Assembly (NCBI GenBank): GCA_902765485.1
Contig: CACWZZ010000001.1
Span: forward strand, 124,001 to 188,000
From: an uncultured Bacteroidales bacterium
Lineage (GTDB): Bacteria; Bacteroidota; Bacteroidia; Bacteroidales; Paludibacteraceae
Length of the DNA stretch: 64,000 bases
Direction: 5' to 3'
Position numbers and translations under genes: made by a program. Positions 14,095-42,497 of the stretch are shown piece after piece (position 1 is the first letter of the stretch; the number at the start of each line of letters is the position of its first letter). Below the pieces are notes generated by a model. It was not told the origin of the DNA and did not search any database. It was given only the letters and a program-made list of their open reading frames with translations.

Positions 14095-16437
14095 TCATAT
14101 TTTTGGAATCAATGTCAATTCAGTTTCGCCCGACTTGAACGTGAATGTCATTTCTTTCAACCAATACGACATTCCGTCAACGCGGATCAATCCGTATGGA
14201 TTATGTTTTATCATTTGATATTCCGGAATCGTCAACGGATATTTGATTTTGAGTGTTTCCGCCTTCATTTTTGGCGTTTCGTTGGCGATTGTGGCGTTTT
14301 CTGCAAGTTGTCCGGACACATTCCCATTGGACAAATAAAAACGTTTGTAATTGCCAAATGATCGCGTGCCGTAACATTCGTATTTCGCTTGATAATTCAC
14401 CGAACCTTTTGTCAGTTCAAACGGCGATGTTGTATTGAAGATCGCCAAACGCGGTTTCCAACGTTCCGCCATGCGACGCGGCGACAAACGCGGGTTCACT
14501 AATTCCGAAGGTTTTGCAATTCCTTCGACGTTCGTGACGGAATCTTTTGCAACGCGATATGATACCGAAGGCGACGACAAATAGACGTCCGCTTCTAATT
14601 CGAACACGAAGATGTTTTCGTCATATTTGAATTCTTCATTGCTATTCACAATCGCTTTTCGCCGTGTTGCTTCGATCGAATAATTGTCCGCAATCCATTT
14701 GCAGAGTTTCGACACGTCTTTCGCAATGGCTTTGATCTTCGAAGTGAATGTGCGTTCCGAATGCACGGAATCAATCGAATTTATTTCTTCGTTGGTCGTA
14801 TATTTCTTGTACCCGATATTCAATGACGTGATCATGCGGTCGGTGTCTATCTTCAACGTCTTTTCGTTCGGATTGTTGATCGTCAAAATGATGTTGTTTT
14901 TGTAAAACCAATCCCATTGTTCAACGCGCACGTACAACGTGCCGTCTTCTTCGACGAATCCCCACCCGACACAATCCAACGCGTCCAACGCTTCGATGAT
15001 GTCTTTGAACGACAATGGCATGTTTCGTTCGGTTTCTCCGTCCGAATACAAATTGCGTATCTTGTACCCGTTCGTGATCGCCTTTAATGCGCCCGCGCCG
15101 AATGGATTTGCGCTTTGTAACGCAAGCGGATTGACAATTGAATCAATACGTCCGTACAAATCCGATTTGCATGTCATTTGGTTGTCGGATATACATTCAA
15201 CAATCTTGTTCAATGCTTCGTGAACCGGCAACATGTCCGCGTCAATATCTTTGTTCGTTCCGTACGATTCGCATGTCATTTTGATGTACCCGCCTTCGGA
15301 TATTGTCAATCGCATTGGCGTTCCGATTCTTATTCCTTCTTCGTCAACGCCCGCGCTACACCAATAATATGAGTTCAACACATGGTTGTAATTGTCGTTG
15401 CGCATGTACACACCGAACCACAATTTTGTGTGTTCAAGATTCGTCAAATGCAGATTGACCGAAATTGTTTTGGAATGTCCGCCGGAATCGTCGTTCATGT
15501 GGAACAATTCCGATTTCCACAATGGTGTGAAGTCTTCAAGATTGCGTCCAAACTTCGTGTCCATGTCAATTAACGCCAAATAACAATCGTATTCATAACG
15601 TCCGGCGGAAACGGTCACATGTTGGTCAAACAATTTGTCAAGTGCTTCAATTTTGACATTCATGTTGATGTCAAGTGTGTACTTCGTTGTGTCGCCGTAC
15701 TTTTCGTCCCAACCCGAACCCTTTGCAAAGAATGGTTGATAATACGATCCGATTTTCGCGTCTTTAATTTGTTGTTTGTCCGCCAATATAGAATCGGCGA
15801 TGTCGCACATTCCGCCAAATTCGCCGAATTCGTCCAATTGCGGGTTTTCGGACGGCACGAAGTTTATGAATTGGTGTGATTTATCAACAGCAAGCGAAAA
15901 ACGCCCCGTTTGCACACTATCGGTATTGAATATGACTTGCGTTGCCGCACGTGATTCGTTTTGGTACAATATAGTTTTTCGCGGAATTCGTAAACGTTTG
16001 AACGCGGGCAAATGCGCCAACGGCGAACCGCCGATCGTGTCTTCGCGGTTCAAGTCCACTTCCGTTTCGCTTCGGTTGTTGAATGTCGTTTTGACACCTA
16101 TTTCGCCGACTTTGCACGAAATCTTCGTTGCATTGCCGGACGCTTCCGAATACGTTGCAAGATCAACAACGCCCGTGTACACAACTTCGTTTTGCCACAT
16201 GACTTTGTATGTCACTTCCGTGTCAATATTCGCGTTGTATGCGTTCCGGATCAGCGTTGCGGCATTGTAGTTCGACGAATTGTAGAATTCCAACGTGCCG
16301 ACGGACACTTCCGCCGACATGCCGTGATAATCGCCGCGTTTGATCGTGGTTTTCAGTCCGTCAAAACCGACCGGTTCGTCAATGGTGTGTTGTACGCCAC
16401 CAATGATCAAATAATGTGTCAATTGCGTCAAGTCCAT
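14095..16437 (-). CDS. tail tip / baseplate hub protein
   Basis: A 780-residue protein immediately after the tape measure gene, whose stop it overlaps by 10 bases. The first 110 residues are beta-rich with a VVYTGVVDLATYS segment resembling the OB-like start of distal tail proteins; the rest is beta-rich with a late helical part. Size and position match the tail-associated hub proteins of long-tailed phages. No lysozyme or peptidase motif was seen. Confidence 0.65.
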   Translation of the reverse strand: MDLTQLTHYLIIGGVQHTIDEPVGFDGLKTTIKRGDYHGMSAEVSVGTLEFYNSSNYNAATLIRNAYNANIDTEVTYKVMWQNEVVYTGVVDLATYSEASGNATKISCKVGEIGVKTTFNNRSETEVDLNREDTIGGSPLAHLPAFKRLRIPRKTILYQNESRAATQVIFNTDSVQTGRFSLAVDKSHQFINFVPSENPQLDEFGEFGGMCDIADSILADKQQIKDAKIGSYYQPFFAKGSGWDEKYGDTTKYTLDINMNVKIEALDKLFDQHVTVSAGRYEYDCYLALIDMDTKFGRNLEDFTPLWKSELFHMNDDSGGHSKTISVNLHLTNLEHTKLWFGVYMRNDNYNHVLNSYYWCSAGVDEEGIRIGTPMRLTISEGGYIKMTCESYGTNKDIDADMLPVHEALNKIVECISDNQMTCKSDLYGRIDSIVNPLALQSANPFGAGALKAITNGYKIRNLYSDGETERNMPLSFKDIIEALDALDCVGWGFVEEDGTLYVRVEQWDWFYKNNIILTINNPNEKTLKIDTDRMITSLNIGYKKYTTNEEINSIDSVHSERTFTSKIKAIAKDVSKLCKWIADNYSIEATRRKAIVNSNEEFKYDENIFVFELEADVYLSSPSVSYRVAKDSVTNVEGIAKPSELVNPRLSPRRMAERWKPRLAIFNTTSPFELTKGSVNYQAKYECYGTRSFGNYKRFYLSNGNVSGQLAENATIANETPKMKAETLKIKYPLTIPEYQMIKHNPYGLIRVDGMSYWLKEMTFTFKSGETELTLIPKI

Positions 16438-19286
16438 GCGGCTTCGTATTTATGGTTCAATATATGGTGTGTGTCGTTTCCTTCGGACACAAGAATTCCG
16501 GATCGGTCAATGTTGACGTGAACCGCCTTTTGTGCCGGTATGCGTACGTTGTCGGCGATCGTGCGTCCCAATCGGTCGTAATCAACCGGCAATCCCATTT
16601 GTTGCGCGATCATGTATCTTGCAATGTCCGAATCAACGTTTGGCATTGTTGGTCGTGCGCCTTCCGGAATGCCGTATTGTCCCCACAATTCCGGACGTGA
16701 CAATTTGTCATGCGGTACGATTGACGCGCCTTGCGGAATATACATAAGTTCCGCGCCACGTTCACCAACCATTGCGTATTCGCCTTTTCCACCGGCACGA
16801 CCTTTTGCGTATTGCGGCAACGGCTTTGCCAATACCATTGCCAATTGTGTTGCACCCAACGCCGCCGCCATTGCAGTCATGACGATCGTTGTGACACCGA
16901 AATCGGCTTTTGGTACGTCCGCCCAAATACGCATGATCGCCATTGCCGTGTTCATTGCAATACTGAATGCGGCTTCCGCTTTTTCCACGGCGGCGGCTTT
17001 GCGTTTCAATGCCAACTTTTTATCTTCCAATTCCTTTTCGGAAATGTACTTTTTGTCCGCGTTTTCCTTCGCTTCTTCGGCGTCGGTTGTGTACATTTCG
17101 TCCAAATCTTCCAATTCGCGTTGTATTTGGTCTTGAACAAACCCGAAGATTTCCGACGCCATGTCGCCAACGAATTGAAGAATATTCGTCACCAATTCTT
17201 GTTGTTCCGCCATGCGTTCGGCGATCACTTCTTTTTCCTTCTCCAATGCTTCGCGTTCAATATCCAATTTGGCGTCTTGATATTCGCGTTCGGAAATCAA
17301 CCCTTTCGACAATTGATCTTCGATTTCTTGCATTCGTATGTCACGCAAATTCGCTTCGTGATTCGCAAGTGTTTCACGCGCCGCACGGATTTGTTCATTG
17401 GTCGAATTTTCGTCGTTGAGAATACGCAATGCGGCGTTTTCGGCTTCTTTGATCCGCATTTCCGCCGCCAACTTCGCGTCGGCAACTTCGGCGGTTGCAC
17501 GTGCCTTTTCATTCGCCGCCAAATCCGCTTGCAACTTCGTATTGATCGCCAAAATCTTTTCGGCGCGCAATTCTTCGTTTTCTTCGGATCGTTCAATTGA
17601 CGCGATTTCCAATTCGGCTTGTTTCTGCAATACCTCGGCGCGTGTGTCATATAGATATTGCCCGCCGAATGATTCAGCCATTGCCATGTCATTTTCAAGA
17701 CGCAATTTCGCCAATTCTTGTTGTTGCGACAATTCTTGTTGCGCCAATTCGTCATTGACACGTTGTATTTCTTGCGAACGTTGTTGTTCAAGTGCCTTGC
17801 GCAATTCGATTTCCGTTGCGGAATTGCCTTTGATCGCTGCAATCTTGCGGTCGAAGTCCAAATTGATTTTCGCGATCTCCTTTTCCGATCCGTCTTGCAT
17901 AAGTGCGATCCGGACGTTCAACAATTGGTTTTCCGCTTCGGCGATTTCTTCGCGTCGGCGTTGTTGGTATTCGCGTTGTTTCTGCAACTTTTCTTCATTC
18001 TGCTTCGTCATTTCGGCAACTTCGCGAATGTGTACGTCCTGCCGGTGTTTCTTGATGTCTTCGTCGAATTGTTCCCATGTTTCGCGCATTTCGTCCAACA
18101 TTTTTTGTTCTTCGTCGGATATTTTCCCGTTGGCGGCTTTTTTCTTCGCCACCATGTCATTGTATGCGCGTACGGCTGCGTTGCGTTGTTTCATGAGTCC
18201 GTTTTCTTCGATTTGCGCAACTTCTTTCCACGATTTGCCTTCGGCTTCCGCAAGTTTCGCGGCATAATCGGATTCCGCCTTCGTGTCCTTGATCAACTCT
18301 TTCGTGCGTTCCATTGTGCCGTTGAAGTCGCGTTGTGCTTCGGCATTCTTCTTCGACCATGAGAAAAGCGCAATCAAACCACCAACCAATGCCGCCGTGC
18401 CTGCGACGATCAACATGACGGGGTTTGCCAACAATGCAGCGTTCAACGACCATGTCGCGGCGGTTGCACTTGTGGTTGCGGCGGTTTGTGCGCCCTTCGC
18501 CACGGCGTCCGCACCGGACGCGGCAACACCCGCCATTGTCTTTGCGGTTTCTTCGGTCTTCGCCTTGTTGAATAGTTTTTGCAATGCCGTCCGGATCACT
18601 ACATTCGCGACGGAATCTTTGTTCAACGTGTTCGCCACTTGTTGCACGCCATTCAACACCGCCAATGCCGCTTGTACCTTCAAGAATGCTTGTTGCAATT
18701 CTTCGGATTCGCCGCCCAATAATGCCATTGCAGACGTCGCCACGTTGAATGCACCGGCAACACCCGATCCAACGGACATTGCGGCGTCAAGATTCGCGGT
18801 GTCGGACGAAAGAATGCGGATTTGCGCTTGCGTATCTCCCATTTGATCCGTCAATTTGGCGGCTTGCACGGACAAATCAATGAACGTTTGCGAAGATGTG
18901 TCGCCCGCCATTTCCATTTGCGCCAATTGTTCGCGGATCGCACGAATTTGTTGCGTCATTTTCGCACCCGCACCGGACATGACGTTCATTGTTGATACGG
19001 ATTGTTTCAACGACGCAATGGATTTTTCGTTCGTTGTGATTTCTTGTTGCAATGCGGTCTTCAATTCCTTGTGATAGTCAATCACACGTTGAAGTTCCGC
19101 CGCGTCTTCTTTTCCGGCTGCAATACGCGCTTTGACGGCGGCGATGTCTTCGGCTTCCGCTTTCGCAAGATTGCGCATTTGCGCTTCAAGTTCCTTCGAC
19201 CGGTTCGTCATTTCGCGCAACTGCAATTGCGCTTCGTTCAAATCGGATTCGCCGGTGACACGTACTATGATGTTTTGATCTGCCAT
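16428..19286 (-). CDS. tape measure protein
   Basis: A 952-residue protein. Residues 20-110 and 410-780 are long Glu/Lys/Gln/Arg-rich coiled coils. Hydrophobic segments lie near residues 285-310 (NPVMLIVAGTAALVGGLIAL) and about 850-875. The C-terminal AMVGERGAELMYIPQGASIV block is the 'GERGPEL' signature found at the end of many tape measure proteins. It sets tail length and passes into the host membrane at injection. A tail assembly chaperone gene lies just upstream, as in lambda. Confidence 0.9.
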   Translation of the reverse strand: MADQNIIVRVTGESDLNEAQLQLREMTNRSKELEAQMRNLAKAEAEDIAAVKARIAAGKEDAAELQRVIDYHKELKTALQQEITTNEKSIASLKQSVSTMNVMSGAGAKMTQQIRAIREQLAQMEMAGDTSSQTFIDLSVQAAKLTDQMGDTQAQIRILSSDTANLDAAMSVGSGVAGAFNVATSAMALLGGESEELQQAFLKVQAALAVLNGVQQVANTLNKDSVANVVIRTALQKLFNKAKTEETAKTMAGVAASGADAVAKGAQTAATTSATAATWSLNAALLANPVMLIVAGTAALVGGLIALFSWSKKNAEAQRDFNGTMERTKELIKDTKAESDYAAKLAEAEGKSWKEVAQIEENGLMKQRNAAVRAYNDMVAKKKAANGKISDEEQKMLDEMRETWEQFDEDIKKHRQDVHIREVAEMTKQNEEKLQKQREYQQRRREEIAEAENQLLNVRIALMQDGSEKEIAKINLDFDRKIAAIKGNSATEIELRKALEQQRSQEIQRVNDELAQQELSQQQELAKLRLENDMAMAESFGGQYLYDTRAEVLQKQAELEIASIERSEENEELRAEKILAINTKLQADLAANEKARATAEVADAKLAAEMRIKEAENAALRILNDENSTNEQIRAARETLANHEANLRDIRMQEIEDQLSKGLISEREYQDAKLDIEREALEKEKEVIAERMAEQQELVTNILQFVGDMASEIFGFVQDQIQRELEDLDEMYTTDAEEAKENADKKYISEKELEDKKLALKRKAAAVEKAEAAFSIAMNTAMAIMRIWADVPKADFGVTTIVMTAMAAALGATQLAMVLAKPLPQYAKGRAGGKGEYAMVGERGAELMYIPQGASIVPHDKLSRPELWGQYGIPEGARPTMPNVDSDIARYMIAQQMGLPVDYDRLGRTIADNVRIPAQKAVHVNIDRSGILVSEGNDTHHILNHKYEAAWT

Positions 19287-20993: not shown

Positions 20994-22505
20994 TCAATGG
21001 TTGATCGGTGTGAAGTGCGAATAAAAGCGGTGAAAGAAGTATCGTGCATTGTCCAACATATCGGCTTTTTGCGCTTCGTTTTCACGACTTGTTTTTATTG
21101 GCTTGTTGTCTTCGTCCGATTTCACATTCTCAAAATCAAATATCAATGGTTTGCACCGGTCTTTGTCAATAATGACGACGAATCGTTCAAATATGCTATT
21201 GACGAACAAACGTGATTGCGCCAATGGCGGGTTCGTCTTCGCGACTTGCATTGCGGCTTCGCCCAATCGGAAGTAATATTGCACTTCTTTGTAATTGTCA
21301 ATCAATGACATTGTCGTCAAATTGCTTCCGGAACAATCGCCGGTGATAATCAAATTGGCGTGCGGGTATCGTTTTTCGATCTCCATGCAAATCATTCGCG
21401 TCGTGCCTTCCATTTTGATTGTGTCAATGCACGTGATCCGTTGCGGATCAATTTGCCACAAACTGCATGTCATTGGTGATCGGTTGAAGTCCAACGACAC
21501 ATACAATGGCATTCGCGGATTGTACGTTGTTGTGCCGGTGTGACGCTTGCGATCGAAAGTGAACAACCACAATTTGTCGTTCGACGTCCACGGGTTTTGT
21601 TGGTACTGCGTTTCGAACACGTATTTGTTTTGTTCGCGCATGATCTTCAATTCTTCCAACGAATGTTTGAACGGGTACAACGGGCGTTCGTTCCCGTCTT
21701 CGTCCGTAACGATCGCGGGCAATGAAATGACGCGCCAATCGTACTTTTCTTCTTCGCGTTGAAGATACCCGCACAAATCGTCTTTGTGTAAACGCTGCAT
21801 GATAACAATGATCGGTGTGTTGCGATCGTTCACACGCGAACGGATTGTGCCTTCAAATATGTCAATGACCTTTTGCCGCATGACGGGCGAATCTGCGTCA
21901 ATCACCTTCAACGGGTCGTCAATAATGATCGCGCCACCAAATTTGCGCTTCGGATCGTCGTTTTCCGGTGTTTCGGTTTTGTCGTCCGGTTCGACGTCGT
22001 CACCATTCAAGAATGATTCGATGTCGGTTGATTCCGTTTGTACGACACCCGCACCAAAACCGGTGATTTGTCCGCATGACGATGTTGCGTAAATGCCGCC
22101 GCCCGCCGTCGTGTACCATTTTTGTTTTGCCTTCGCGTCTTTTTTGACAACGACTTCCGGAAACAAATTTGTGTACCAATCGGACGTCACCGCGTCACGT
22201 ATCTTTTCGGAATCGTCCAACGCAAGATTGGCGGAATACGATGTCAAAATGTACTTCGACGCCGGATTCAATGCCAATCCCTTTTTGACAAACGCTTTTT
22301 TCATTTCCGTTTTCGAATAGCGCGGCGGCAAATTGATAATCAAAAAGCGCGTTTTGCCTTCAAAAACGTCGTCGAATGCTTCCGCGATCGTCTTGTGGTG
22401 TTCGCCAACGTTGAATTTTTGTCCGGTTTCCGACGCAAAGAAAAACCGCGTTGCAAACAATGTGTCTTCGAATATACAATGTCGTATTGCTTGCGATTTT
22501 GTCAT
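20994..22505 (-). CDS. terL: terminase large subunit
   Basis: A 503-residue DNA-packaging motor. The ATPase half has a Walker A-like LPPRYSKTE (residues 59-67), the reduced form used by many phage terminases, and Walker B IIIDD (193-197). The nuclease half has D339 (VSLDFNRS), D390 (IITGDCSGSN) and D482/D485 (KADMLDNARYFF), the RNase H-like metal site. It lies 4 bases after the small subunit gene. Confidence 0.93.
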   Translation of the reverse strand: MTKSQAIRHCIFEDTLFATRFFFASETGQKFNVGEHHKTIAEAFDDVFEGKTRFLIINLPPRYSKTEMKKAFVKKGLALNPASKYILTSYSANLALDDSEKIRDAVTSDWYTNLFPEVVVKKDAKAKQKWYTTAGGGIYATSSCGQITGFGAGVVQTESTDIESFLNGDDVEPDDKTETPENDDPKRKFGGAIIIDDPLKVIDADSPVMRQKVIDIFEGTIRSRVNDRNTPIIVIMQRLHKDDLCGYLQREEEKYDWRVISLPAIVTDEDGNERPLYPFKHSLEELKIMREQNKYVFETQYQQNPWTSNDKLWLFTFDRKRHTGTTTYNPRMPLYVSLDFNRSPMTCSLWQIDPQRITCIDTIKMEGTTRMICMEIEKRYPHANLIITGDCSGSNLTTMSLIDNYKEVQYYFRLGEAAMQVAKTNPPLAQSRLFVNSIFERFVVIIDKDRCKPLIFDFENVKSDEDNKPIKTSRENEAQKADMLDNARYFFHRFYSHFTPINH

Positions 22506-22509
22506 GGCG

Positions 22510-22932
22510 TCATATCTTTGTTTGCAACTCTTTTATAAATTCGGCGGCTTCCGCCGGTGTCATGTCGTGTTCGTGTTTCACTTTTGCCGTTCCGGACACT
22601 TCGATTTGTTGTGCCGGTGATTGTCCGGTCAAATCCGCAAGAAGTTTCGCGGCGGACGTGTCACCGGACATGGCTTTGCGATATAATCCAACGATGACCG
22701 CGCCGTCCCATGTCGCGTCTTCTTCTTTGCCTTGCGGGTTTTTCAATTTGATGTGTTGTTTGCCGTAAAACTTCGCCCATTCACGATATGAACGATTGCG
22801 TCGCGCCGATTCACGTGACTTCTTGTTGGCTTCTTTCGCCGTTTTCGAATTGAATGACGTTGCATTCCGCTTCGATTTTTTCGGCGTTGCCTTCTCTTTT
22901 GCTTCCGTTTTCGATGTCTTTTCCTTTGCCAT
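22510..22932 (-). CDS. terS: terminase small subunit
   Basis: A 140-residue protein starting at ATG 22932; residues 1-50 are a Lys/Arg-rich tail. The rest has REWAKFYGKQHIKLKNPQGK and then the GDTSAAKLLADLTGQ helix typical of small terminases. It binds phage DNA at the packaging start and hands it to the large subunit encoded directly downstream. The satellite protein at 36729-37076 has a comparable GDTTA helix. Confidence 0.78.
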   Translation of the reverse strand: MAKEKTSKTEAKEKATPKKSKRNATSFNSKTAKEANKKSRESARRNRSYREWAKFYGKQHIKLKNPQGKEEDATWDGAVIVGLYRKAMSGDTSAAKLLADLTGQSPAQQIEVSGTAKVKHEHDMTPAEAAEFIKELQTKI

Positions 22933-34840: not shown

Positions 34841-35089
34841 ATGAACGCAACCGAAGTTACACAACGATTTGTACAATCGTACTTCAATTTGTACCAACAC
34901 CGGATCGTCGAAACGAAGAAGCAATTTTGCGACGCCGTCGGATTGTACACAACCAATTTGAATTTGATGTCGAAGGGCGAACGCCAATGCACCATTGCAC
35001 AAATATGCAGTCTTTTTGACAAATACGGCGTCAATCCCGTTTGGTTGTTCACCGGAACGGGTGCATTCTTCGCCAATGGTGACAATTGA
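34841..35089 (+). CDS. second HTH regulator (repressor-like)
   Basis: An 82-residue protein from ATG 34841. Residues 25-60 (KKQFCDAVGLYTTNLNLMSK) resemble a helix-turn-helix, and NPVWLFTGTGAFF (about 66-78) matches the WLLFGTGDML motif of the main repressor. It overlaps nothing but is 2 bases from both neighbours. It may balance the lysogeny decision or control the integrase that follows. Confidence 0.65.
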   Translation: MNATEVTQRFVQSYFNLYQHRIVETKKQFCDAVGLYTTNLNLMSKGERQCTIAQICSLFDKYGVNPVWLFTGTGAFFANGDN

Positions 35090-35091
35090 TC

Positions 35092-36372
35092 ATGGCAAAC
35101 GTTGTTTTCCGTCTATCGTCGAAACGATCCGGTGACAAATCCGAATTGTTGGTGCGCTTTTATGCGTCGCGCGTGATTGATTTGCGTGCGCATACGCGAT
35201 TGTTTGTACCAACGGAATTGTGGAACGACAAAATGCAACGTTTGTTGATTCCACGGCGCGTCGTCACCGAAGACACAATCGCCGCAACGGAAATACAATC
35301 GAAGATCGAAGAATTGCGCACGTTGATATTGAATGAGTACACACAAACGCACGACGAACGCGATGTCACGAAATCATGGTTGGAACGGATCATTGACCAA
35401 TTCCACAACGTTGATCGCCACGAATTGACGCCGCTTTCGGCAATGGTTGACCGGTATATCGTCGCACGGAATATCACGCCGCGAACCGGCGATCAATACG
35501 AAGTGTTGAAACGCATGTTGGATCGTTTTGCCGAAGCCAACAAAACGTTGTACGTCGGACGGATCGAAACGGCGGACATTGGCGCGTTTGAATTATTCTT
35601 GCGCGAAGAAGAAGTCACGACGAAGAATGGAAAAAGACGCATGGTCGAAAGAAGCCGAAACACGATCAATTCCAAATTGCGCCGCTTGCGTGCCTTGTGC
35701 AATTATTGTGTCGAAATCGGCATGACGGATTCAAACCCGTTCAACCGGTACAAAATACCGGCGGACGTGTACGGAACGCCCGTGTTTTTGACATTGGACG
35801 AACGCGACAAACTATATGCAACGCACTTCGACAATCCGTCATTGGAACGGCAAAAAGACATATTCGTGTTTCAATGCCATATTGGTTGCCGTGTGTCCGA
35901 TCTGCTATCCATGACAACCGAAAACGTCACGCCGGACGGATTCATTCAGTACATACAATTCAAGTTGCGCAAATCCAATCCGATTGTCGTGCGCGTGCCT
36001 TTGACGGAAACGGCAAAAGAAATCATTGCGAAGTATGCCGGACAACCGGACGGGCGATTGTTGCCGTTCATTTCGCAAGACAAATACAACGACGCAATCA
36101 AACGTGTGTTGACGGACGCCGGTATTGATCGCATGGTATTGGTGCAAAATAAACATTCGTACAAAAGCGAACCGAAGCCGATTTGCGAAATCGCCGCGTC
36201 ACACCTTGCGCGTCGCACCTTCATGGCGAACATGTTTCGTCAAACGCGATCGGAACGGATCGTGTCGTCATTCACCGGACATGCGCGCGGATCGGCTGCA
36301 TTCAGTCGGTACACCGACGTTGACGACGAAATGAAACGTCAAATCATATCCGGCATTGATACGTCGAAATAA
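35092..36372 (+). CDS. int: tyrosine integrase of the prophage
   Basis: A 426-residue site-specific recombinase. Catalytic residues are visible: R267 (CHIGCRVSDLL), H371-x-x-R374 (SHLARRTF), H397 (FTGHARGS) and the nucleophile Y407 (FSRYTD). The N-terminal 90 residues are the arm-binding part, followed by a SAM-like core-binding domain. ATG 35092 is preferred to the TTG at 35086. The stop lies 138 bases from the attachment core at 36510. Confidence 0.93.
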   Translation: MANVVFRLSSKRSGDKSELLVRFYASRVIDLRAHTRLFVPTELWNDKMQRLLIPRRVVTEDTIAATEIQSKIEELRTLILNEYTQTHDERDVTKSWLERIIDQFHNVDRHELTPLSAMVDRYIVARNITPRTGDQYEVLKRMLDRFAEANKTLYVGRIETADIGAFELFLREEEVTTKNGKRRMVERSRNTINSKLRRLRALCNYCVEIGMTDSNPFNRYKIPADVYGTPVFLTLDERDKLYATHFDNPSLERQKDIFVFQCHIGCRVSDLLSMTTENVTPDGFIQYIQFKLRKSNPIVVRVPLTETAKEIIAKYAGQPDGRLLPFISQDKYNDAIKRVLTDAGIDRMVLVQNKHSYKSEPKPICEIAASHLARRTFMANMFRQTRSERIVSSFTGHARGSAAFSRYTDVDDEMKRQIISGIDTSK

Positions 36373-36509
36373 ATTGCCGACATTTTGCCGACGCGATTGC
36401 ATGTTCATTTACTTTCATTTCGCAATGGCAACAACACCGGCACAAACAAATATGTTGTAAAACACGAAAATTGGAGAAATAAAACGAAAAGTCCCCTTGC
36501 GCGCCTTTG

Positions 36510-36524
36510 TCCTGCATGGATCAC
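36510..36524. repeat. attachment core, prophage-satellite junction
   Basis: TCCTGCATGGATCAC, repeated exactly at 42028-42042. The sequence reads as the T-stem 3' strand (CCTGC), acceptor strand (ATGGATC) and discriminator A of a tRNA. It is the junction of two integrated elements. Confidence 0.85.
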
Positions 36525-36530
36525 TACTAC

Positions 36531-36571
36531 AAATCGTAAGTCGTTGAAAATAAACGATTTACGATTTTTCT
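36531..36571. terminator. hairpin just inside the satellite left end
   Basis: A 15-bp stem with one G-T pair (36531-36545 and 36553-36567), loop of 7, followed by TTCTTTT. It works as a rightward terminator and would also replace the tRNA terminator displaced by integration. Confidence 0.7.
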
Positions 36572-36680
36572 TTTGTAGATTTGCCCCACATTTGCCCCTA
36601 CCTCCGCTATATTTAGGCACTTTTGCCCCTCTTTTGGGCGGCGGTCATTTAAGCCGCAGCCGCAGCAGTGTATATACACG

Positions 36681-36706
36681 AAAAAGCACCCACTTTTGCG
36701 GGTGCT
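36681..36706 (-). terminator. terminator of the satellite operon
   Basis: On the minus strand AGCACCC / GGGTGCT stem (36706-36700 and 36691-36685, loop of 8) followed by a U run (36685-36681). It closes the leftward satellite transcript after the terS-like gene. Confidence 0.75.
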
Positions 36707-36728
36707 CTCTAGGTGGTCTAGTGGTGCT

Positions 36729-37076
36729 CTAGCTATGCGGCATGATATCCGCATAGCGTATAGGCTTGCCGCTGCTGGTTAGATCTACTTGCATTTCGCT
36801 CTTTTCTCCCCAGCCTCTCTGCTTTCCTTTGCTCTTAAGGGCAAAGATTATAGCCGTAGTGTCTCCGGCTCGCATACGCTCTACTAGGCAGTCCTCTGCA
36901 AAGTCTAGAAACTCCTCTTTTACCTCCTCTACTACTGCGGCAAATTCCGGATCTTTCTTGCACCACTCTCCAAAAGTACTGCGGGCTACTTTGTGCCTGC
37001 GGCATGTTTCGGATAGGTTGCCTAGCGTCTCTCGATAGGTGGCTAAAATAGCCTGCTTTTGCTCTTTCGTGTACAT
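36729..37076 (-). CDS. small-terminase-like protein of the satellite
   Basis: A 115-residue protein. Residues 1-45 form a helix-turn-helix of the phBC6A51 type (GNLSETCRRHKVARSTFGEW). Then RMRAGDTTAIIFALKSKGKQRGW matches the GDTSAA helix seen in the prophage small terminase. Satellites of the PICI type use such a protein to redirect a helper packaging motor; here that is inferred from the family and gene set. It is the last gene of its operon. Confidence 0.7.
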   Translation of the reverse strand: MYTKEQKQAILATYRETLGNLSETCRRHKVARSTFGEWCKKDPEFAAVVEEVKEEFLDFAEDCLVERMRAGDTTAIIFALKSKGKQRGWGEKSEMQVDLTSSGKPIRYADIMPHS

Positions 37077-37190
37077 ACTCTTTTTTTAGTGTTCGATTTG
37101 TACGATTTTACAATAGTGCTGCGGCTCTTTCTCTAGCCTAGCCGCTTTAGGCTGTAGGTGCACCGGCTTTTGGTTTCTCTCCGGTTGTTT

Positions 37191-37718
37191 CTAGGTTGTT
37201 AGCCTCCTATATAGCTCTAGGTACTCCGGAAAGTTATGCACAAATTCGTATATACCCCCAGCGGCTCTATATTCAGCCTGCACTCGCAGTTGATCGGTGC
37301 GCGGTCTATCCGTTCCGGCTTTTATCTCCAGCTGTACTGCTTTGCCTGCTATGATCGCGGATATATCGGCCATACCTTTGCGGGCACTTGTGGTGCGATA
37401 TTGTCCGCGTGTGGGATCATATACTCCGGTGGTGTTCACTCGCGCGGCAAAATAGCCGTGAAACTCTAGGTGCGCGATAATTGCGCGTGTGAGGCTGTTT
37501 GCGTCTTTGTCACTAAAGTGGGTGCGCGCTAGGCACTCCGGCGGGATCTTTGGAAACTTTAGCGCCTGCGCTGCATTGTAGGCTGTTTCAAACTCCACTA
37601 GCTCTGCTGGCTTTATGTATCGCTTTGCCGGTTTCGCTGCTTTGGGCTTTTTAGCCGCAGCGGGGCGGCGGTGGTACATACCCCACAGCTCCCCTACTAT
37701 TATTTCGTTACTGGCCAT
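37191..37718 (-). CDS. VRR-NUC-like endonuclease
   Basis: A 175-residue protein. The C-terminal 70 residues read as a VRR-NUC domain: KGMADISAII (metal-binding D), QLEIKAG (ExK), RPRTDQLRVQAEYRAAGGIY. It is a PD-(D/E)xK fold that cuts branched or double-stranded DNA. The N-terminal 50 residues are Ala/Lys-rich and probably disordered. Overlap of 11 bases with the upstream gene shows operon structure. A role in processing replicated satellite DNA is plausible. Confidence 0.78.
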   Translation of the reverse strand: MASNEIIVGELWGMYHRRPAAAKKPKAAKPAKRYIKPAELVEFETAYNAAQALKFPKIPPECLARTHFSDKDANSLTRAIIAHLEFHGYFAARVNTTGVYDPTRGQYRTTSARKGMADISAIIAGKAVQLEIKAGTDRPRTDQLRVQAEYRAAGGIYEFVHNFPEYLELYRRLTT

Positions 37719-38490
37719 TGCAAAAATACTCTATGCGGTCTGCACCGCAGGTTTCTAGATATGTGGCTATATTGGCTTTGCTCGCTTTGCTCAATACCTC
37801 GCGTGCTGCGGCTGTGCATCGCACCTCTAGTACCGGTGTGCCATCGTCACTAATTTTGCCTGCTCCATACACCTCTAGTGCTCGCGTATTTCTACAGCCG
37901 GTAGCCTCTATAAAGTTAGCTGCAATAGTCAGTGCTGCGCGGTCTGCTGCCAGTACCATCGCTTTTGCTGCGTAGGCTAGTGGGTGCTCTTTCTGCGCTG
38001 CTCTTTCATATACGCTGTGCAGATCTGCTGCTTTTACTAGGTAGCCATTGCGCAGCAAAGCTAGTCCTAGATCAAACTCTTTTATAGCTCCATCGGTCGC
38101 AAGGTTCGCTAGAACCTGCTTTGCATTGCTTTGACTTGTATTGTTATTGTCTTGTATTGTATTGCTTTGTAAGGGGCTGCTAGTACCTGCTAGGGTCTGC
38201 TCGGTGCTGTTAGGTATTGCTTTTGCTCCGTTCTCCCTGCGTCTGTCGTTATTCTCTCTGCGCTCCTCGCATAGTTCCTCTAGATCTCCCTCATAGCATG
38301 CCATAGCTACAGCCGCAGCCGGCGAAAGTCTCTGCGCGTCCGGCATCTCTGCTGCTCCATATACTTTGGCTAGTTGGTAGTCTATAAAATACTCATATAA
38401 GCCGCAGCGTTCAGCCTCATTAGGTACTGCTTTGCGTATTCCTCGCACCCACTTTTCGTATATATGTGCGTGTGGTCTCGCTTTGCTCAT
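37708..38490 (-). CDS. replication-type protein of the satellite
   Basis: A 260-residue protein. The N-terminal 50 residues (WVRGIRKAVPNEAERCGLYE) resemble the start of the prophage initiator-like protein and other DUF6291-type proteins. Residues 105-130 are a low-complexity Ser/Asn/Gln linker encoded by TATTG-rich repeats (about 38121-38170). The C-terminal half is Ala-rich and helical. A replication-initiation role is inferred from this layout. Confidence 0.55.
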   Translation of the reverse strand: MSKARPHAHIYEKWVRGIRKAVPNEAERCGLYEYFIDYQLAKVYGAAEMPDAQRLSPAAAVAMACYEGDLEELCEERRENNDRRRENGAKAIPNSTEQTLAGTSSPLQSNTIQDNNNTSQSNAKQVLANLATDGAIKEFDLGLALLRNGYLVKAADLHSVYERAAQKEHPLAYAAKAMVLAADRAALTIAANFIEATGCRNTRALEVYGAGKISDDGTPVLEVRCTAAAREVLSKASKANIATYLETCGADRIEYFCNGQ

Positions 38491-38533
38491 AGTTCTAATA
38501 ATTTTGATTTGTTAGTACTCATTTTGATTAGAT

Positions 38534-38821
38534 CTACTTGCGTACTCCCTTTATGCGCTTTACCTCCGAAAGCCAGTAGAAACACTTTGCGCCTACTTTG
38601 ACTGGTACTAGGTAGTTCTCACGTCCCCAGCGCCAAAGGGTGCTGCGATCTACTCCCAGCATAGTAGCTGCCTGCGTGGGTGTTATCTGCATATCGGCCT
38701 GCTCGCGCTCCAGGCGCTCTGCGGTCTCTGCTGCGATAGTGTTTGCAAACTCTTTGAGGTCTTTGGCATCTACTACCAGTAGTGCGCCGTTTTCGTTTTT
38801 CAAAATCTCTGCTATATTCAT
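38534..38821 (-). CDS. excisionase-like HTH protein of the satellite
   Basis: A 95-residue protein from ATG 38821. The C-terminal half (ITPTQAATMLGVDRSTLWRW ... WLSEVKRI) is an AlpA/Xis-type helix-turn-helix. The N-terminal half (DAKDLKEFANTIAAETAERL) parallels the prophage protein at 31747-32052. Own promoter at 38950-38981. It probably drives excision and the replication operon. Confidence 0.76.
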   Translation of the reverse strand: MNIAEILKNENGALLVVDAKDLKEFANTIAAETAERLEREQADMQITPTQAATMLGVDRSTLWRWGRENYLVPVKVGAKCFYWLSEVKRIKGVRK

Positions 38822-38949
38822 ATTATTTGCTGCGGCCACTATAGGGGTGCTACTGGGGCACTGTTACCCTCCTCCTCCCCTTTGGCTCGCTGGGTGGTTT
38901 CCGGTCAGTCCTACCTAGTAGCGGCGGCGGTGCTTTCCGAAAGCCGGTG

Positions 38950-38981
38950 CAAAAGTACTATATTTGCAGCAGATATGCAAA
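38950..38981 (-). promoter_or_regulatory. satellite promoter for xis-rep-terS operon
   Basis: On the minus strand TTTG (38981-38978), 20 bases, TACTTTTG (38957-38950), an exact consensus. It lies 129 bases upstream of the ATG at 38821. A tandem CGGCTAGAAA repeat (about 39012-39031) upstream could bind a regulator. Confidence 0.82.
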
Positions 38982-39070
38982 AAATAACTAGCCGCCTCTA
39001 ACTGGTCGGCTAGAAACGGCTAGAAACGGCATAGAAGCCTGCAAAGATTTGCTACAAAATCGTAGAAAAT

Positions 39071-39952
39071 CTATAGATCTGCGGGTATGTATATATCTAA
39101 GGGGATAGGTCTTTTAGGGTGTCTCTCCGGTTGTAGATATTGGGCTATGCTCTCCCACTTTCCGCACTCCGGAAACTCTGCGGCAAAAGCCTGCGGTTTT
39201 GGGTACATAGTTATGTATTGCTTTTCGCGTAGTGCTATTATGTGCGCAGCCACAAAAGCGCCCCCTCTGCCATCTATTTGTGCGTGCAGCCACTCTATTA
39301 GTGCTGCTTTGTCTTTGGCTTTAGCGCTCACTATATCGCTAAATAGCGCCGGTGCTGCGGCTCTCCTCTGCTGCGGCTTGGCTAGGTTCTCCAGTGCTGC
39401 GGCTATCGTTTCTCGATCTACTAGGCTGGCTAGGATCTCCGGCGCGTCCTCTGCTGGGTGTGGGTGTTTGCAGTGTGCAGCTACTAGCGCTGTCTGCGTG
39501 CGCTCTGCGTGTGTTAGATCTCTACGCTCTAGCAGTAAAGCCGCAGCGTCCTCGATAGGCTGCTGCACGCTCTCCCAGCGGGTGTGCCAGTTCTCCAGCC
39601 ATTTAGCCGCAGCCTCTGCGGTGTCTAGTCTCTCGATAGCCATCTGCATCGCATAGCCGTAGGCATAATAGAAAGCACGCAGCCACTCCCACAAATTCCG
39701 CAGCGGGTGGTGGTGGCTGGTGCAGTAGTTCGCTAGCTGTAGGCCGTATATAGGGCACTGCGCAGCCTCCGGTGTTGCGGCTACTAGGTACAGCGTAATA
39801 TGCGCGCGGCTGTTTCCGGATAAGCCGCAGCGCTCTAGGTCTGCTGTTAGGTACTCTGCGCCGGTTCTATAGGCGCTTGCTGCGCAGTGAGGGCGCAGAA
39901 TCTCTAGGCATACGCGCACTGCGTCTAGGTCATTTAGTTTGCTATAGTCCAT
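39071..39952 (-). CDS. satellite protein, unknown
   Basis: A 293-residue Ala-rich, helical protein. Residues about 100-110 hold HHHPLRNLWEWLRAFYYAYGY, aromatic-rich; the C-terminal 60 residues carry ALREKQYITMYPKPQAFAAE. Similar C-termini occur in Bacteroides mobile-element proteins of unknown function, but I cannot name a family safely. It is the largest unknown gene of the satellite and the best candidate for helper interference. Confidence 0.65.
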   Translation of the reverse strand: MDYSKLNDLDAVRVCLEILRPHCAASAYRTGAEYLTADLERCGLSGNSRAHITLYLVAATPEAAQCPIYGLQLANYCTSHHHPLRNLWEWLRAFYYAYGYAMQMAIERLDTAEAAAKWLENWHTRWESVQQPIEDAAALLLERRDLTHAERTQTALVAAHCKHPHPAEDAPEILASLVDRETIAAALENLAKPQQRRAAAPALFSDIVSAKAKDKAALIEWLHAQIDGRGGAFVAAHIIALREKQYITMYPKPQAFAAEFPECGKWESIAQYLQPERHPKRPIPLDIYIPADL

Positions 39953-40160
39953 AGGTCTCTATTTTGTTGCGTCTGCTGCATTTTCTTTTGCGGGCTGGGT
40001 GTTTTATCGGCTAGCCTCCAAATAGGCTTGCAGGTGGCTTTGTGTGGTGGTTCTCGCTGCGGCTCTAAAGTAATTATTTTAATTAGTTTATAATTATTTT
40101 GATTACCGGCTAGGCTATACCTCCCCTGCAGCCGTTCACATACCCAGTGCGCCTGCTCTC

Positions 40161-40394
40161 CTACTTTGTGGCTACTCCATCGCTGTAGGCTAGTGCCTCT
40201 AGGATCTTTGCACCCACTATAGGCGCTATAGCCTGCTGGTAGTCTGCTAGCGCGTTTGCTGCGGCTATAGCCTCTGCGCTCTCCTCTCCATACTCTGCGG
40301 CCACTATGTCATGTAGGCGGCTGGCTGCGTTCTCTACCTCTTTTGCTGCGGCTAGCAGTTTGTTAGCCTCGCTGTCTAGAATTGTGTGTGTCAT
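40161..40394 (-). CDS. small satellite protein, unknown
   Basis: A 77-residue Ala/Glu-rich helical protein from ATG 40394 (HTILDSEANKLLAAAKEVEN). It could form a coiled coil. It follows the integrase by 38 bases and shows no known motif. Confidence 0.55.
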   Translation of the reverse strand: MTHTILDSEANKLLAAAKEVENAASRLHDIVAAEYGEESAEAIAAANALADYQQAIAPIVGAKILEALAYSDGVATK

Positions 40395-40432
40395 TGTGTT
40401 TGTGTATTTAGTTAGATTATATAGCGGGGGCA

Positions 40433-41824
40433 CTACTGCGCCTCCTCGATTAGTTCTAGATCTGCACCCACTTTATAGGCTGGCTGGCGAAAAGCTACAC
40501 ACATAAGCGCAAAGCGATCTGCGCGCTCTAGGTTTGTATAGCGTTTCACTGCCTCGCTATTCTCACTATGCAAGCCGGCTGCATATTCATTTATCTGCAC
40601 TTTGTTCAGCATATCTACGTGCGTTTTGCGTGCTAGTTTGCTGCTGCCAAATTCATATAGCGGGCGGTACTCATTAGTTCCGGTCTCTGCGTTGTACTTT
40701 GTTACTTTGCGATCTATTCCGCAAGCTTTTAGCAGGTCTTTTATTTTGGCATTGTAGCCACTAGCGCCGTAGCGGTTGCGCAGGATAGGAAACGAAAAGC
40801 CGCAGCCCTTTATGATATCTAGTGCATAGCGCATGATAGGTGTCTCTACCTCGCTATAGTCTGCTGCGGCCTCTGCGGTCTTTTCCGGCAAATAGTGGAT
40901 ATAAGCAAAGCCGCTGGGATCTACTGCTATATTGTCCATAGATAGGCGCGCAAAGTCTCCCAGCCTACAGCCGAAAGCGCACTGCACTACAAAAGCGCTG
41001 CGGGTCTCCTCTAGTTTCGCTGGGATCTTTGCAGATAGTACGCGCTGCAGTTCCTCTGCTACTAGGTATATAGGCGCATCGTATTTCTCGCGCAGTACTT
41101 TGCGCGTGTGCTCTTTGCCTAGTCTCCGGAAAGGGTTTGCGTCTATCTCTCCAGCGTCCTCTAGTGCAGTAAAGAATGTGCGCAGCATCTTTAGCTTTGT
41201 AGCTGCTGTGTTATCGGATCTGCGCTCCGTTGGTATGTCGATAGTCTTGCAGTCTGCGTACAGCTGCGGCCAGTCTGCTGTATAGCGGTATTCGTCTAGC
41301 ACGAAAGCGCGAAAGTCCATAAGCACCGGCGCAGTCACTTGCGCGGGTGTTATGTCTATACGATTAGTAACTACTAGGAAGCGGCGCAGTATTCTAGCCA
41401 CTACGCTATAGTGTCTGCCTCGCGCATTGCCTATCAGTCCATCGCGCTCGCTGTCTGCTATGTACTTTTGGAAACGCTCTAGCAGGGTGCGCGGCTGTCC
41501 GGTCTCTATGTTAGGGCGCTTTATACGCTCTATATAGGTGTGCAGTGTTTCGCCGGTCATGGGTGCACCATCGGCGCGCATAGCTGCATAGGCTGCGGAT
41601 ATGATCCGGCGCTCCTCGCGTATATCGGCTACTAGTTCCGGATCGTATTTGCTCACGTGCTTTGCCGGTTCGCCGGTGTTATCCAGCTTTGCTAGGTCGC
41701 GCAGATCTGCTACTATGTCGCTGGGGTGTGTTAGATCACACTTGCGGCCATCTTTTAGACGAAAGCGCAGCCGGATAGTTCCGGTGCTCTTTGTAGTCCT
41801 CAATTTTAGCGTTACTTTTTCCAT
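40433..41824 (-). CDS. int: tyrosine integrase of the satellite
   Basis: A 463-residue recombinase, clearly different from the prophage one. R287 (CAFGCRLGDF), K396-x-x-R399 (SSKLARKTH; the usual first residue is His), H419 (GLHSEN) and the nucleophile Y429 (VKRYTN) are visible. It is transcribed away from its attachment site, whereas the prophage integrase is transcribed toward its own. Promoter at 41855-41886. Confidence 0.9.
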   Translation of the reverse strand: MEKVTLKLRTTKSTGTIRLRFRLKDGRKCDLTHPSDIVADLRDLAKLDNTGEPAKHVSKYDPELVADIREERRIISAAYAAMRADGAPMTGETLHTYIERIKRPNIETGQPRTLLERFQKYIADSERDGLIGNARGRHYSVVARILRRFLVVTNRIDITPAQVTAPVLMDFRAFVLDEYRYTADWPQLYADCKTIDIPTERRSDNTAATKLKMLRTFFTALEDAGEIDANPFRRLGKEHTRKVLREKYDAPIYLVAEELQRVLSAKIPAKLEETRSAFVVQCAFGCRLGDFARLSMDNIAVDPSGFAYIHYLPEKTAEAAADYSEVETPIMRYALDIIKGCGFSFPILRNRYGASGYNAKIKDLLKACGIDRKVTKYNAETGTNEYRPLYEFGSSKLARKTHVDMLNKVQINEYAAGLHSENSEAVKRYTNLERADRFALMCVAFRQPAYKVGADLELIEEAQ

Positions 41825-41854
41825 CTCGATAGGGCTTTATATCAAAAACTGGTG

Positions 41855-41886
41855 CAAAGATACTGCTTTTTTTTGATATATGCAAG
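41855..41886 (-). promoter_or_regulatory. promoter of the satellite integrase
   Basis: On the minus strand CTTG (41886-41883, one base off TTTG), 20 bases, TATCTTTG (41862-41855). It is 31 bases from the integrase ATG. Confidence 0.72.
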
Positions 41887-42027
41887 AATTTGCCCCACTT
41901 TTGCCCCACATTTTTGCAATTTTTTGCAATAATTTTGAAAAAGCCTGCAAAAGTGTATGCGCGTATATATGTAATATATAAGCAGTTACGATATTTCAGC
42001 GTTTTTCAAAAGTATTGTATTATTGAA

Positions 42028-42042
42028 TCCTGCATGGATCAC
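42028..42042. repeat. right attachment core
   Basis: Second copy of TCCTGCATGGATCAC, with the host-side terminator starting one base later. The preceding TTGAA plus the core reads like a tRNA T-loop/T-stem, which fits insertion into a tRNA gene whose body lies left of the window. Confidence 0.85.
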
Positions 42043-42073
42043 AAGCGTCTGAGGTTGCCTCAGACGCTTTTTT
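42043..42073 (+). terminator. strong intrinsic terminator (of the target tRNA)
   Basis: A perfect 12-bp stem AAGCGTCTGAGG / CCTCAGACGCTT (42043-42054, 42058-42069), 3-base loop, and a T run to 42073. Lying directly after the attachment core, it is probably the original terminator of the tRNA transcript. Confidence 0.9.
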
Positions 42074-42097
42074 GTGTCGGTAACGTATCACGAATAT

Positions 42098-42158
42098 CCC
42101 CCTAATCACCCCTTAATCACCCCCTTATCACCCCCTAATCACCCCCTTATCACCCCCT
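42098..42158. repeat. C-rich tandem repeat, about 11-bp unit
   Basis: Five units of the type TTATCACCCCC / TAATCACCCCC in 60 bases. The opposite strand has five G-runs and might form a quadruplex. It lies upstream of the FHA-protease promoter. Confidence 0.85.
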
Positions 42159-42205
42159 TTTGGCACGAAAAAAGGAAAAATAATTGTAAAAAAATGACAT
42201 TGTCT

Positions 42206-42237
42206 ATTGCATAATTAAAAAAAATACAGTATCTTTG
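42206..42237 (+). promoter_or_regulatory. promoter of the signalling cluster
   Basis: ATTG (42206-42209, one base off), 20 bases, TATCTTTG (42230-42237). Expected start near 42245. The flanking bases (ATGACATTGTCTATTG) resemble those upstream of the promoter at 51969. Confidence 0.75.
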
Positions 42238-42275
42238 CAGCCGAATTTATACCAAATGCCGCAGAAGGCGTATAT

Positions 42276-42423: not shown

Positions 42424-42497
42424 AAAGGCAGGAATACCATTATAACGGAGTTAGCCGAAAATCCGTAGAAGAGTAGGCACCCGAAAATCAAAACAAT

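Follow-up and report, generated by a model that had tools for sequence, protein, structure and literature searches.

A 5.5-kb integrated element with its own small terminase gene as a probable minimal phage satellite in Bacteroidales

Introduction

How might a chromosomal element of only seven genes, with an integrase and a small-terminase-like gene and with no recognisable virion gene, spread between genomes? This question is raised by positions 36525-42042 of a 64,000-nucleotide stretch of an uncultured Bacteroidales bacterium of the Paludibacteraceae (GenBank assembly GCA_902765485.1, contig CACWZZ010000001.1, positions 124,001 to 188,000), hereafter the window. The original prediction, made from the letters alone, saw in it a satellite resembling the phage-inducible chromosomal islands (PICIs). 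Our analysis indicates that this 5,518-bp element is probably a minimal phage satellite, and it is best read as one that would work like a PICI. The reading is based on site-specific integration, the possession of a small terminase subunit (TerS), the lack of a large terminase subunit (TerL) or virion gene, recent transfer, and the position of this TerS family beside TerL in phages. An integrase and a packaging gene with no recognised particle gene suggest spread via the particles of a helper virus.

Integration at a tRNA-Arg gene

Integration into the chromosome is site-specific, as in a phage satellite. Seven open reading frames (ORFs) were found on the minus strand, the number predicted, in the transcription order int, p90, p293, HTH (helix-turn-helix), rep, nuclease and terS. 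They are flanked by an exact 15-bp repeat that is the 3' end of tRNA-Arg(ACG) (C1:117970-118044). The copy at 36510-36524 (plus strand) is the att core of the distal, terS end and marks the junction with a prophage, and the copy at 42028-42042 (plus strand) is the core of the int end and marks the junction with the chromosome, giving 5,518 bp from core to core. A 14-bp core is present in three exact copies on one strand of the genome (2.1 Mb searched, 83% complete), namely the two element ends and the tRNA 3' end at C1:118031-118044. The prophage, 42.5 kb long, lies between the tRNA gene and the element, so that both are in tandem at one site.

The corresponding empty site was found in G104, a close relative in which prophage and element are both absent. 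Its left flank (96.6% identity over 1,575 bp) runs directly into the right flank (95% over 289 bp, then 96.5% over 633 bp), with the join exactly at the core, which in the window is the int-end repeat. A query joining the tRNA gene to the right flank had matches in 165 of 178 congeneric genomes, mostly to the tRNA part alone; among the matches listed, it was uninterrupted in G104 and G163 (97%, 113 bases) and continuous over bases 1-106 in G170 (91%) and G171 (88%). The boundaries are called from the tRNA 3' end together with the empty site, and not from repeat length alone. Membership in a larger conjugative element had been named as the finding that would speak against the original prediction; the element is exactly bounded, and family searches of its seven proteins gave no match to a relaxase, mobilization or transfer gene.

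A packaging-type terS gene

The terS gene (115 aa; 36729-37076, minus strand) is supported as a packaging-type gene by its profile matches and by the neighbourhood of its relatives, and it would provide the means of packaging expected of a satellite. The predicted small-terminase likeness was borne out by matches to phrog_309 (E 2.3e-11, residues 30-104) and phrog_4044 (E 1.2e-9), with further PHROGs matches to phrog_24579 and phrog_606. The nearest virus homologue found is in L014 (52% identity), where TerL (PF04466) follows directly. The TerS alignment led to 16 virus-contig loci; in 10 of them (L014, L067, L068, L070, L071, L073-L076 and L078) the ORF that follows is TerL, and 7 of these remain once near-duplicates are removed. 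Representatives were tested, and L068, L071 and L076 were assigned from the correspondence of their ORFs. The contigs of L069 and L079 end less than 400 bases from TerS, and no TerL is among the ORFs listed for L072, L077, L080 and L081. In Flavobacterium phage 1/32 and in phage vB_RanS_PJN03 the homologue directly precedes an annotated TerL, and a third, partial match is the annotated terminase small subunit of Pasteurella phage Pmp13. Against the PDB, the best hit of the TerS profile was a ribosomal protein (E 0.14), with a 'Phage protein' at E 0.73. The relatives of this gene are packaging genes, the opposite of the never-with-packaging outcome that had been set as a second ground for abandoning the prediction.

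The other six genes

The integrase (463 aa; 40433-41824, minus strand) was confirmed as a tyrosine integrase by PF13102 and phrog_1, with the His of the HxxR motif replaced by Lys when the catalytic positions were aligned by eye. The excisionase-like HTH protein was likewise recovered, as a 101-aa HTH_17 protein (38534-38839, minus strand) matching PF12728 (E 1.9e-6) and phrog_66 'excisionase and transcriptional regulator' (E 1.5e-7); it gave the single match (mad1, E 5.2e-6) of a defence-library scan of six of the seven proteins. The 175-aa protein encoded at 37191-37718 (minus strand) stands as a nuclease through phrog_93 (endonuclease, E 1e-8) and a conserved GxxD...ExK pattern in the alignment. 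Its predicted VRR-NUC name is less secure, with no match in Pfam and a weak PDB match to 4qbo 'Nuclease' (E 0.071); we keep it as an assumption from the shape of the motif and the earlier wording.

The predicted replication-type protein (rep, 260 aa; 37708-38490, minus strand) is DUF6291-like in its first 95 residues (hhalign probability 62%, pair E 7.7e-5), a weak resemblance that disappeared when full lengths were compared, and it has no family above the cut-off in Pfam, PHROGs or a further family search; the replication label is kept as putative. The two remaining proteins, p293 (293 aa; 39071-39952, minus strand) and p90 (90 aa, or 77 aa from Met14 as in G078; 40161-40433, minus strand), have no family above the cut-off, as had been predicted. 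The structure predicted for p293 is a weak model (pLDDT 61) with no PDB fold at E<=0.001, and p90 has homologues in the related elements of G036, G032 and G078. In agreement with the prediction, no virion gene was recognised among the seven proteins with Pfam and PHROGs, and none of the seven genes is TerL. The satellite part of the prediction is upheld by anatomy and comparison. For its PICI part, family searches of the seven proteins found no AlpA, primase or Stl (which we take to be the PICI regulator), of which the HTH protein and rep could be diverged counterparts. No capsid-resizing gene was recognised in the element.

Recent transfer between species

Among the 178 genomes of the genus, TerS is present in 3 and the integrase in 5 (E<=1e-30; own genome counted in both). 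Comparison with one of these relatives, G078, establishes that the element moved recently between species and that selection acts on int. G078 belongs to another species, and its element shares 94.5% DNA identity over 5,553 bp, whereas the chromosomes share 76.8% over 11 kb; of the 463 codons of int, 28 differ by synonymous changes only and 0 change an amino acid. An element of 94.5% on chromosomes of about 77%, together with synonymous-only changes in int, points to a recent move of an element under selection. All seven ORFs lack internal stops in both copies, and dN/dS is 0 for int, 0.04 for HTH, 0.07 for the nuclease, 0.19 for p293, 0.25 for terS, 0.25 for p90 and 0.38 for rep. Synonymous divergence is uneven, with dS of 0.49 for terS and 1.12 for p90 against 0.055-0.133 for int, p293, HTH, rep and nuclease, and identity in 150-bp windows is 81-84% over terS, 72-79% over p90 and 78% in one rep window. 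These divergence patches in terS and p90, perhaps also that in rep, suggest exchange.

The G078 element is also located at tRNA-Arg(ACG) and is not separated from the tRNA by a prophage. Compared with L004 at C1, the tRNA-Arg neighbourhood of G078 (L023) is rearranged, with polA (by eye) and its neighbours inverted on the other side of the element. G036 (L010/L027) has the same gene order with an 86% integrase at tRNA-Arg(CCG), and no terS was found in its element (L027) with a local profile. G032 (L011/L028) has terS at 62%, a nuclease at 67-69% and a diverged integrase, and its element is located between def and ruvX (by eye), where 24 bp at the start of def are duplicated (88%). The elements of G036 and G032 had no visible prophage next to them, and neither did that of G078 within the range covered, which reaches 1.3 kb to the left of the tRNA. 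The integrase relatives in G027 and G010 are on short contigs.

Related loci in Bacteroidota

A search of genomes for the gene set with core repeats, as the original prediction had proposed, recovered a wider group. Scanning genome contigs with the nuclease alignment gave 41 confirmed loci, 40 with titles naming taxa that we take to belong to Bacteroidota and one titled only 'bacterium'. Integrase and nuclease are on the same strand in 25 of the 41 (local profiles; the matches of L026, L027, L028, L053 and L065 follow from construction or near-identity), with the best integrase match always upstream; 14 others have no integrase match and 2 no nuclease match, several being on short contigs. Eight of the 25 (L026, L027, L030, L032, L040, L042, L046 and L049) are bounded by a direct repeat of a tRNA 3' end on the integrase side. 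These eight span 5.3-8.6 kb, carry Bacteroidales, Paludibacteraceae or Prolixibacteraceae titles and include five with an HTH profile match. No boundaries were assigned to the Sphingobacteriales and Siphonobacter loci. The near form is rare, as the nuclease profile (E<=1e-10) was found in 5 of 395 genomes of a phylum sample, own genome included. The nucleases of two relatives had no match in the phage collection, and a plasmid search gave one distant nuclease match, on a plasmid typed as non-mobilizable.

The distal gene varies among these loci. It is an HTH-type TerS in L026 and in L028, the latter not tRNA-bounded, and a TerS of another family, P27-type (PF05119, phrog_83), in the tRNA-bounded L032. 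A similar protein of about 100 aa is distal in L012, L031, L036, L040, L045, L054, L060 and L061; DUF5681 is above the cut-off in 3 of these 8 (L012, L040 and L054), and their PHROGs matches are solely to families of unknown function. In L045, the DUF5681-like gene directly precedes TerL. We hold it about evenly balanced whether these loci represent an undescribed family of phage satellites, about 5-9 kb in size and spread across the phylum Bacteroidota, that changes helper by swapping its distal packaging gene. The defining set of such a family would comprise int, an excisionase-like HTH gene, a VRR-NUC-like nuclease, a replication gene, one variable gene and, at both ends, paired repeats about 11 bp apart, with an HTH-type TerS, a P27-type TerS or a DUF5681-like protein as the exchangeable distal gene.

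A type II methyltransferase, a restriction enzyme and an HTH gene are encoded at L042:11635-14392, inside a tRNA-bounded element, and the restriction-modification pair is, as judged from its genes, defence cargo. Similar-looking small ORFs (by eye) lie downstream of the DUF5681-like gene at L060:11433-13864 (seven) and L061:12183-13510 (four). The IMG/VR contig L122 combines an integrase-HTH-nuclease set with a TerS (phrog_606) and an 859-aa ORF that is tape measure-like by eye and has no Pfam match. Three short phage records from faeces (MT838662, MT839178 and MT836828) carry a related integrase; with no nuclease match among the ORFs listed, they were not counted.

Arm-type repeats and promoter-like boxes

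We read the paired repeats at the element ends as presumed arm-type integrase sites; prophage and satellite would then use a common core with different arm specificity. TTTGCCCC is present in five copies in the window (both strands searched), all at the element ends: three at 36580-36629 (36580, 36591 and 36622) and two at the int end (41889-41907), all on the plus strand, forming a pair 11 bp apart per end plus one extra. The prophage has the same layout with its own repeat TTGCCGAC, twice at 36374-36392 (plus strand) and matched by two copies at C1:118104 and 118115; the longer form TGCCGACA has five further copies on the opposite strand at other places of the window. The window element, the prophage and six of the eight tRNA-bounded relatives passed a test that required one 7-mer to occur as a pair, spaced 10-12 bp, in the 260 bp inside each of the two ends; in this count L026, L027 and the window element share their repeat and are not independent. 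L046 has its repeat pair with this spacing at one end only and L042 has none. Of 14,723 random pairs of windows drawn from these loci, 11 passed (102 without the spacing rule). The repeats are about 100-140 bp from the core at the integrase end and 35-61 bp from it at the opposite end.

Two promoter-like -7 boxes were called on the minus strand, presuming a consensus of TAnnTTTG. The box TATCTTTG upstream of int (41855-41862) is one of six such boxes on this strand of 36400-42100 and is weak alone. The box TACTTTTG upstream of HTH-rep-nuclease-terS (38950-38957) has TTTG about 20 nt upstream and is within a block conserved across four aligned elements. A sigma-70-type promoter scan gave 5 sites against 5.7 expected.

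A terminator-like hairpin (15-pair stem, T-rich tail; 36531-36567, plus strand), present in G078 too, lies just inside the element beside the tRNA-side core; terminator-like sites in 36400-42200 number 12 against 7.7 (sd 3.4) in shuffles. Each element seemingly brings such a hairpin directly 3' of the tRNA end, in the window, at C1:118050-118095 and in L010 (the last two by eye), and the original tRNA terminator (42043-42069) ends up on the far side of the element. Just outside attR, five CACCCCCTTAT-like repeats 11 bp apart occupy 42087-42159, and the start of the repeat is also at the G104 empty site. A 42-nt inverted repeat (79%) connects the int end of the element (41844-41885) with the chromosome outside (42207-42248), and the G104 locus has a weak 33-bp match to the int end. 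Further right, a DUF805b RNA motif (Rfam RF02914, 43.9 bits; 42445-42479) precedes a gene with FHA and trypsin-like domains.

The neighbouring prophage and candidate helpers

The right part of the 42.5-kb prophage occupies 1-36509 of the window, and family searches identified portal (10640-12538), tape measure (16428-19286), TerL (20994-22505) and integrase (35086-36372) genes there; the prophage also has a RecE-like gene. Its left part encodes a reverse transcriptase at L004:15858-17288 (C1:121858-123288; phrog_1423 E 7.5e-68; RVT_1), which could be part of a diversity-generating retroelement.

The helper would probably be an L014-type phage and not this prophage. The L014 TerL has relatives in 2 of the 178 congeneric genomes, a close one in G064 (64 and 78%, two fragments) and a remote one in G018 (28%). 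The G064 phage fragment (L165, G064:C192) has another TerS type (phrog_606). Queuosine/deazaguanine-type genes are near terS-terL in both L014 and L165 (by eye). A helper role for the resident prophage, hinted at in the original prediction, is unlikely. It is favoured by co-residence at the same core site, and the TerL beside the TerS relatives L067, L074 and L078 matches the profile of the prophage TerL. Yet the prophage TerL is immediately preceded by an ORF (22510-22932) for a different protein, dissimilar to the element TerS and with marginal matches alone (phrog_26239 E 0.0035; DUF5681 E 0.0098, below the cut-off), and the G078 element has no such prophage between it and the tRNA.

Discussion

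Three other explanations of the element are less probable than a phage satellite. In one, it is an autonomous integrative element, or one borne by a conjugative helper, and its terS-like gene encodes a regulator of the HTH type that has nothing to do with packaging. TerS does match transposase HTH models (PF01527 E 1.2e-5), and several related elements with no recognised terS are still located at tRNA sites; however, the phage small-terminase profiles score better, the nearest phage homologue found directly precedes TerL, and no relaxase or transfer gene is among the seven, which makes this explanation improbable. Still further from likely is an immobile remnant of a larger prophage that lost its virion genes. 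The small size, the phage-type genes and the position beside a prophage at the same site would fit such decay, but not the intact ORFs and synonymous-only int changes of the two copies, the same compact form in G078 with related forms in G036 and G032, or the clean ends and empty site. We give equally little credence to a composite in which element and prophage move together as one 48-kb unit: they share the core repeat, are in tandem order and are both absent from G104, but they have separate integrases and separate end repeats (TTGCCGAC vs TTTGCCCC), and in G078 the element is found with no prophage between it and the tRNA.

Several observations also weigh against the satellite reading itself. 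Packaging, a circular form and induction by a helper are inferred from the genes. The HTH likeness of TerS to transposases belongs here too, and TerS relatives accompany several TerL types, which leaves room for the resident prophage as helper. Neither a primase nor an origin was recognised, the only origin-like repeats in the element being a 10-bp pair and a 14-bp pair, and two proteins stay unexplained. For the wider group, L045 carries TerL, and some of the 25 integrase-nuclease loci, in which no systematic virion-gene search was made, may be prophages. No terS was recognised with a local profile in L027, L029, L030, L042, L046 and L049, and PHROGs searches of eight ORFs from the last five gave 0 matches. 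Neither the nuclease nor the rep protein had a copy in IMG/VR when each was used alone as the query; among the best 80 of at least 373 confirmed distant nuclease loci there, an integrase is upstream in 1 (L122), and these 80 stretches, many not whole contigs, have no terminal repeat of 12-200 bases.

If the element is a satellite, infection or induction of a helper would lead integrase and HTH protein to excise it as a circle, and the DUF6291-like protein and the nuclease may serve its replication or resolution. TerS would bind a packaging site on the element's own DNA and recruit the helper TerL, so that the element is packed into helper particles. Given its 5.5 kb and the lack of a recognised capsid-resizing gene, the easiest way to pack it would be as head-to-tail multimers in heads of full size, as has been shown for the 6.1-kb PICMI115. 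If near-identical copies exchange terS, this would amount to helper switching.

The element resembles known systems in part. PICIs (SaPI and Gram-negative) have a specific att site, an integrase, in some members a TerS homologue, and packaging by helper machinery, and they are usually about a third of the helper genome, according to PMC6092414, in whose main text the word 'bacteroid' is absent. Our element shares the att site, integrase and TerS homologue. It may differ in its size of 5.5 kb, and it differs in the nuclease as the gene common to the relatives found; it has no AlpA-family or primase match, but its HTH protein and rep could be diverged counterparts of the PICI regulator and replication module. 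The PICMIs of Vibrionaceae, as described in the text of PMC10803314, are small, with few genes, including an integrase, a regulator and a replication function, and no capsid-resizing gene; PICMI115 (6,110 bp) was found packed as an 8-copy concatemer. The likeness extends to small size, few genes, integrase, regulator, putative replication gene and no recognised capsid-resizing gene. PICMIs, however, are inserted beside fis and have alpA as well as a primase (PMC10803314, in the text of which 'terminase' is absent). Our element is in a tRNA-Arg gene, carries TerS and has no AlpA or primase match, and we do not class it as a PICMI.

This element is also to be set against other integrative elements of its own phylum. 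NBU-type units of Bacteroides are integrase-bearing elements of Bacteroidota with specific sites, traits that our element shares. However, NBUs encode a mobilization protein and none was found among the element's seven, which sets it apart from NBUs and other integrative and mobilizable elements. To our knowledge, all described satellite families come from phyla other than Bacteroidota. The list of such families in PMC11389934, a paper that names NBU1, is from other phyla, and open-access titles and abstracts, a scope that leaves out preprints, gave no Bacteroidota phage satellites among the matches listed; a Porphyromonas phage paper has 'satellite' in its reference list alone.

Phage satellites are a class known already, and what is new here is the gene set, the size and the phylum. 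If the satellite reading is true, a dominant gut and rumen phylum would have its own very small satellites, and this gene set would be a near-minimal list for parasitising a tailed phage. Helper switching could then be tested directly on the two near-identical copies, which differ in their terS genes.

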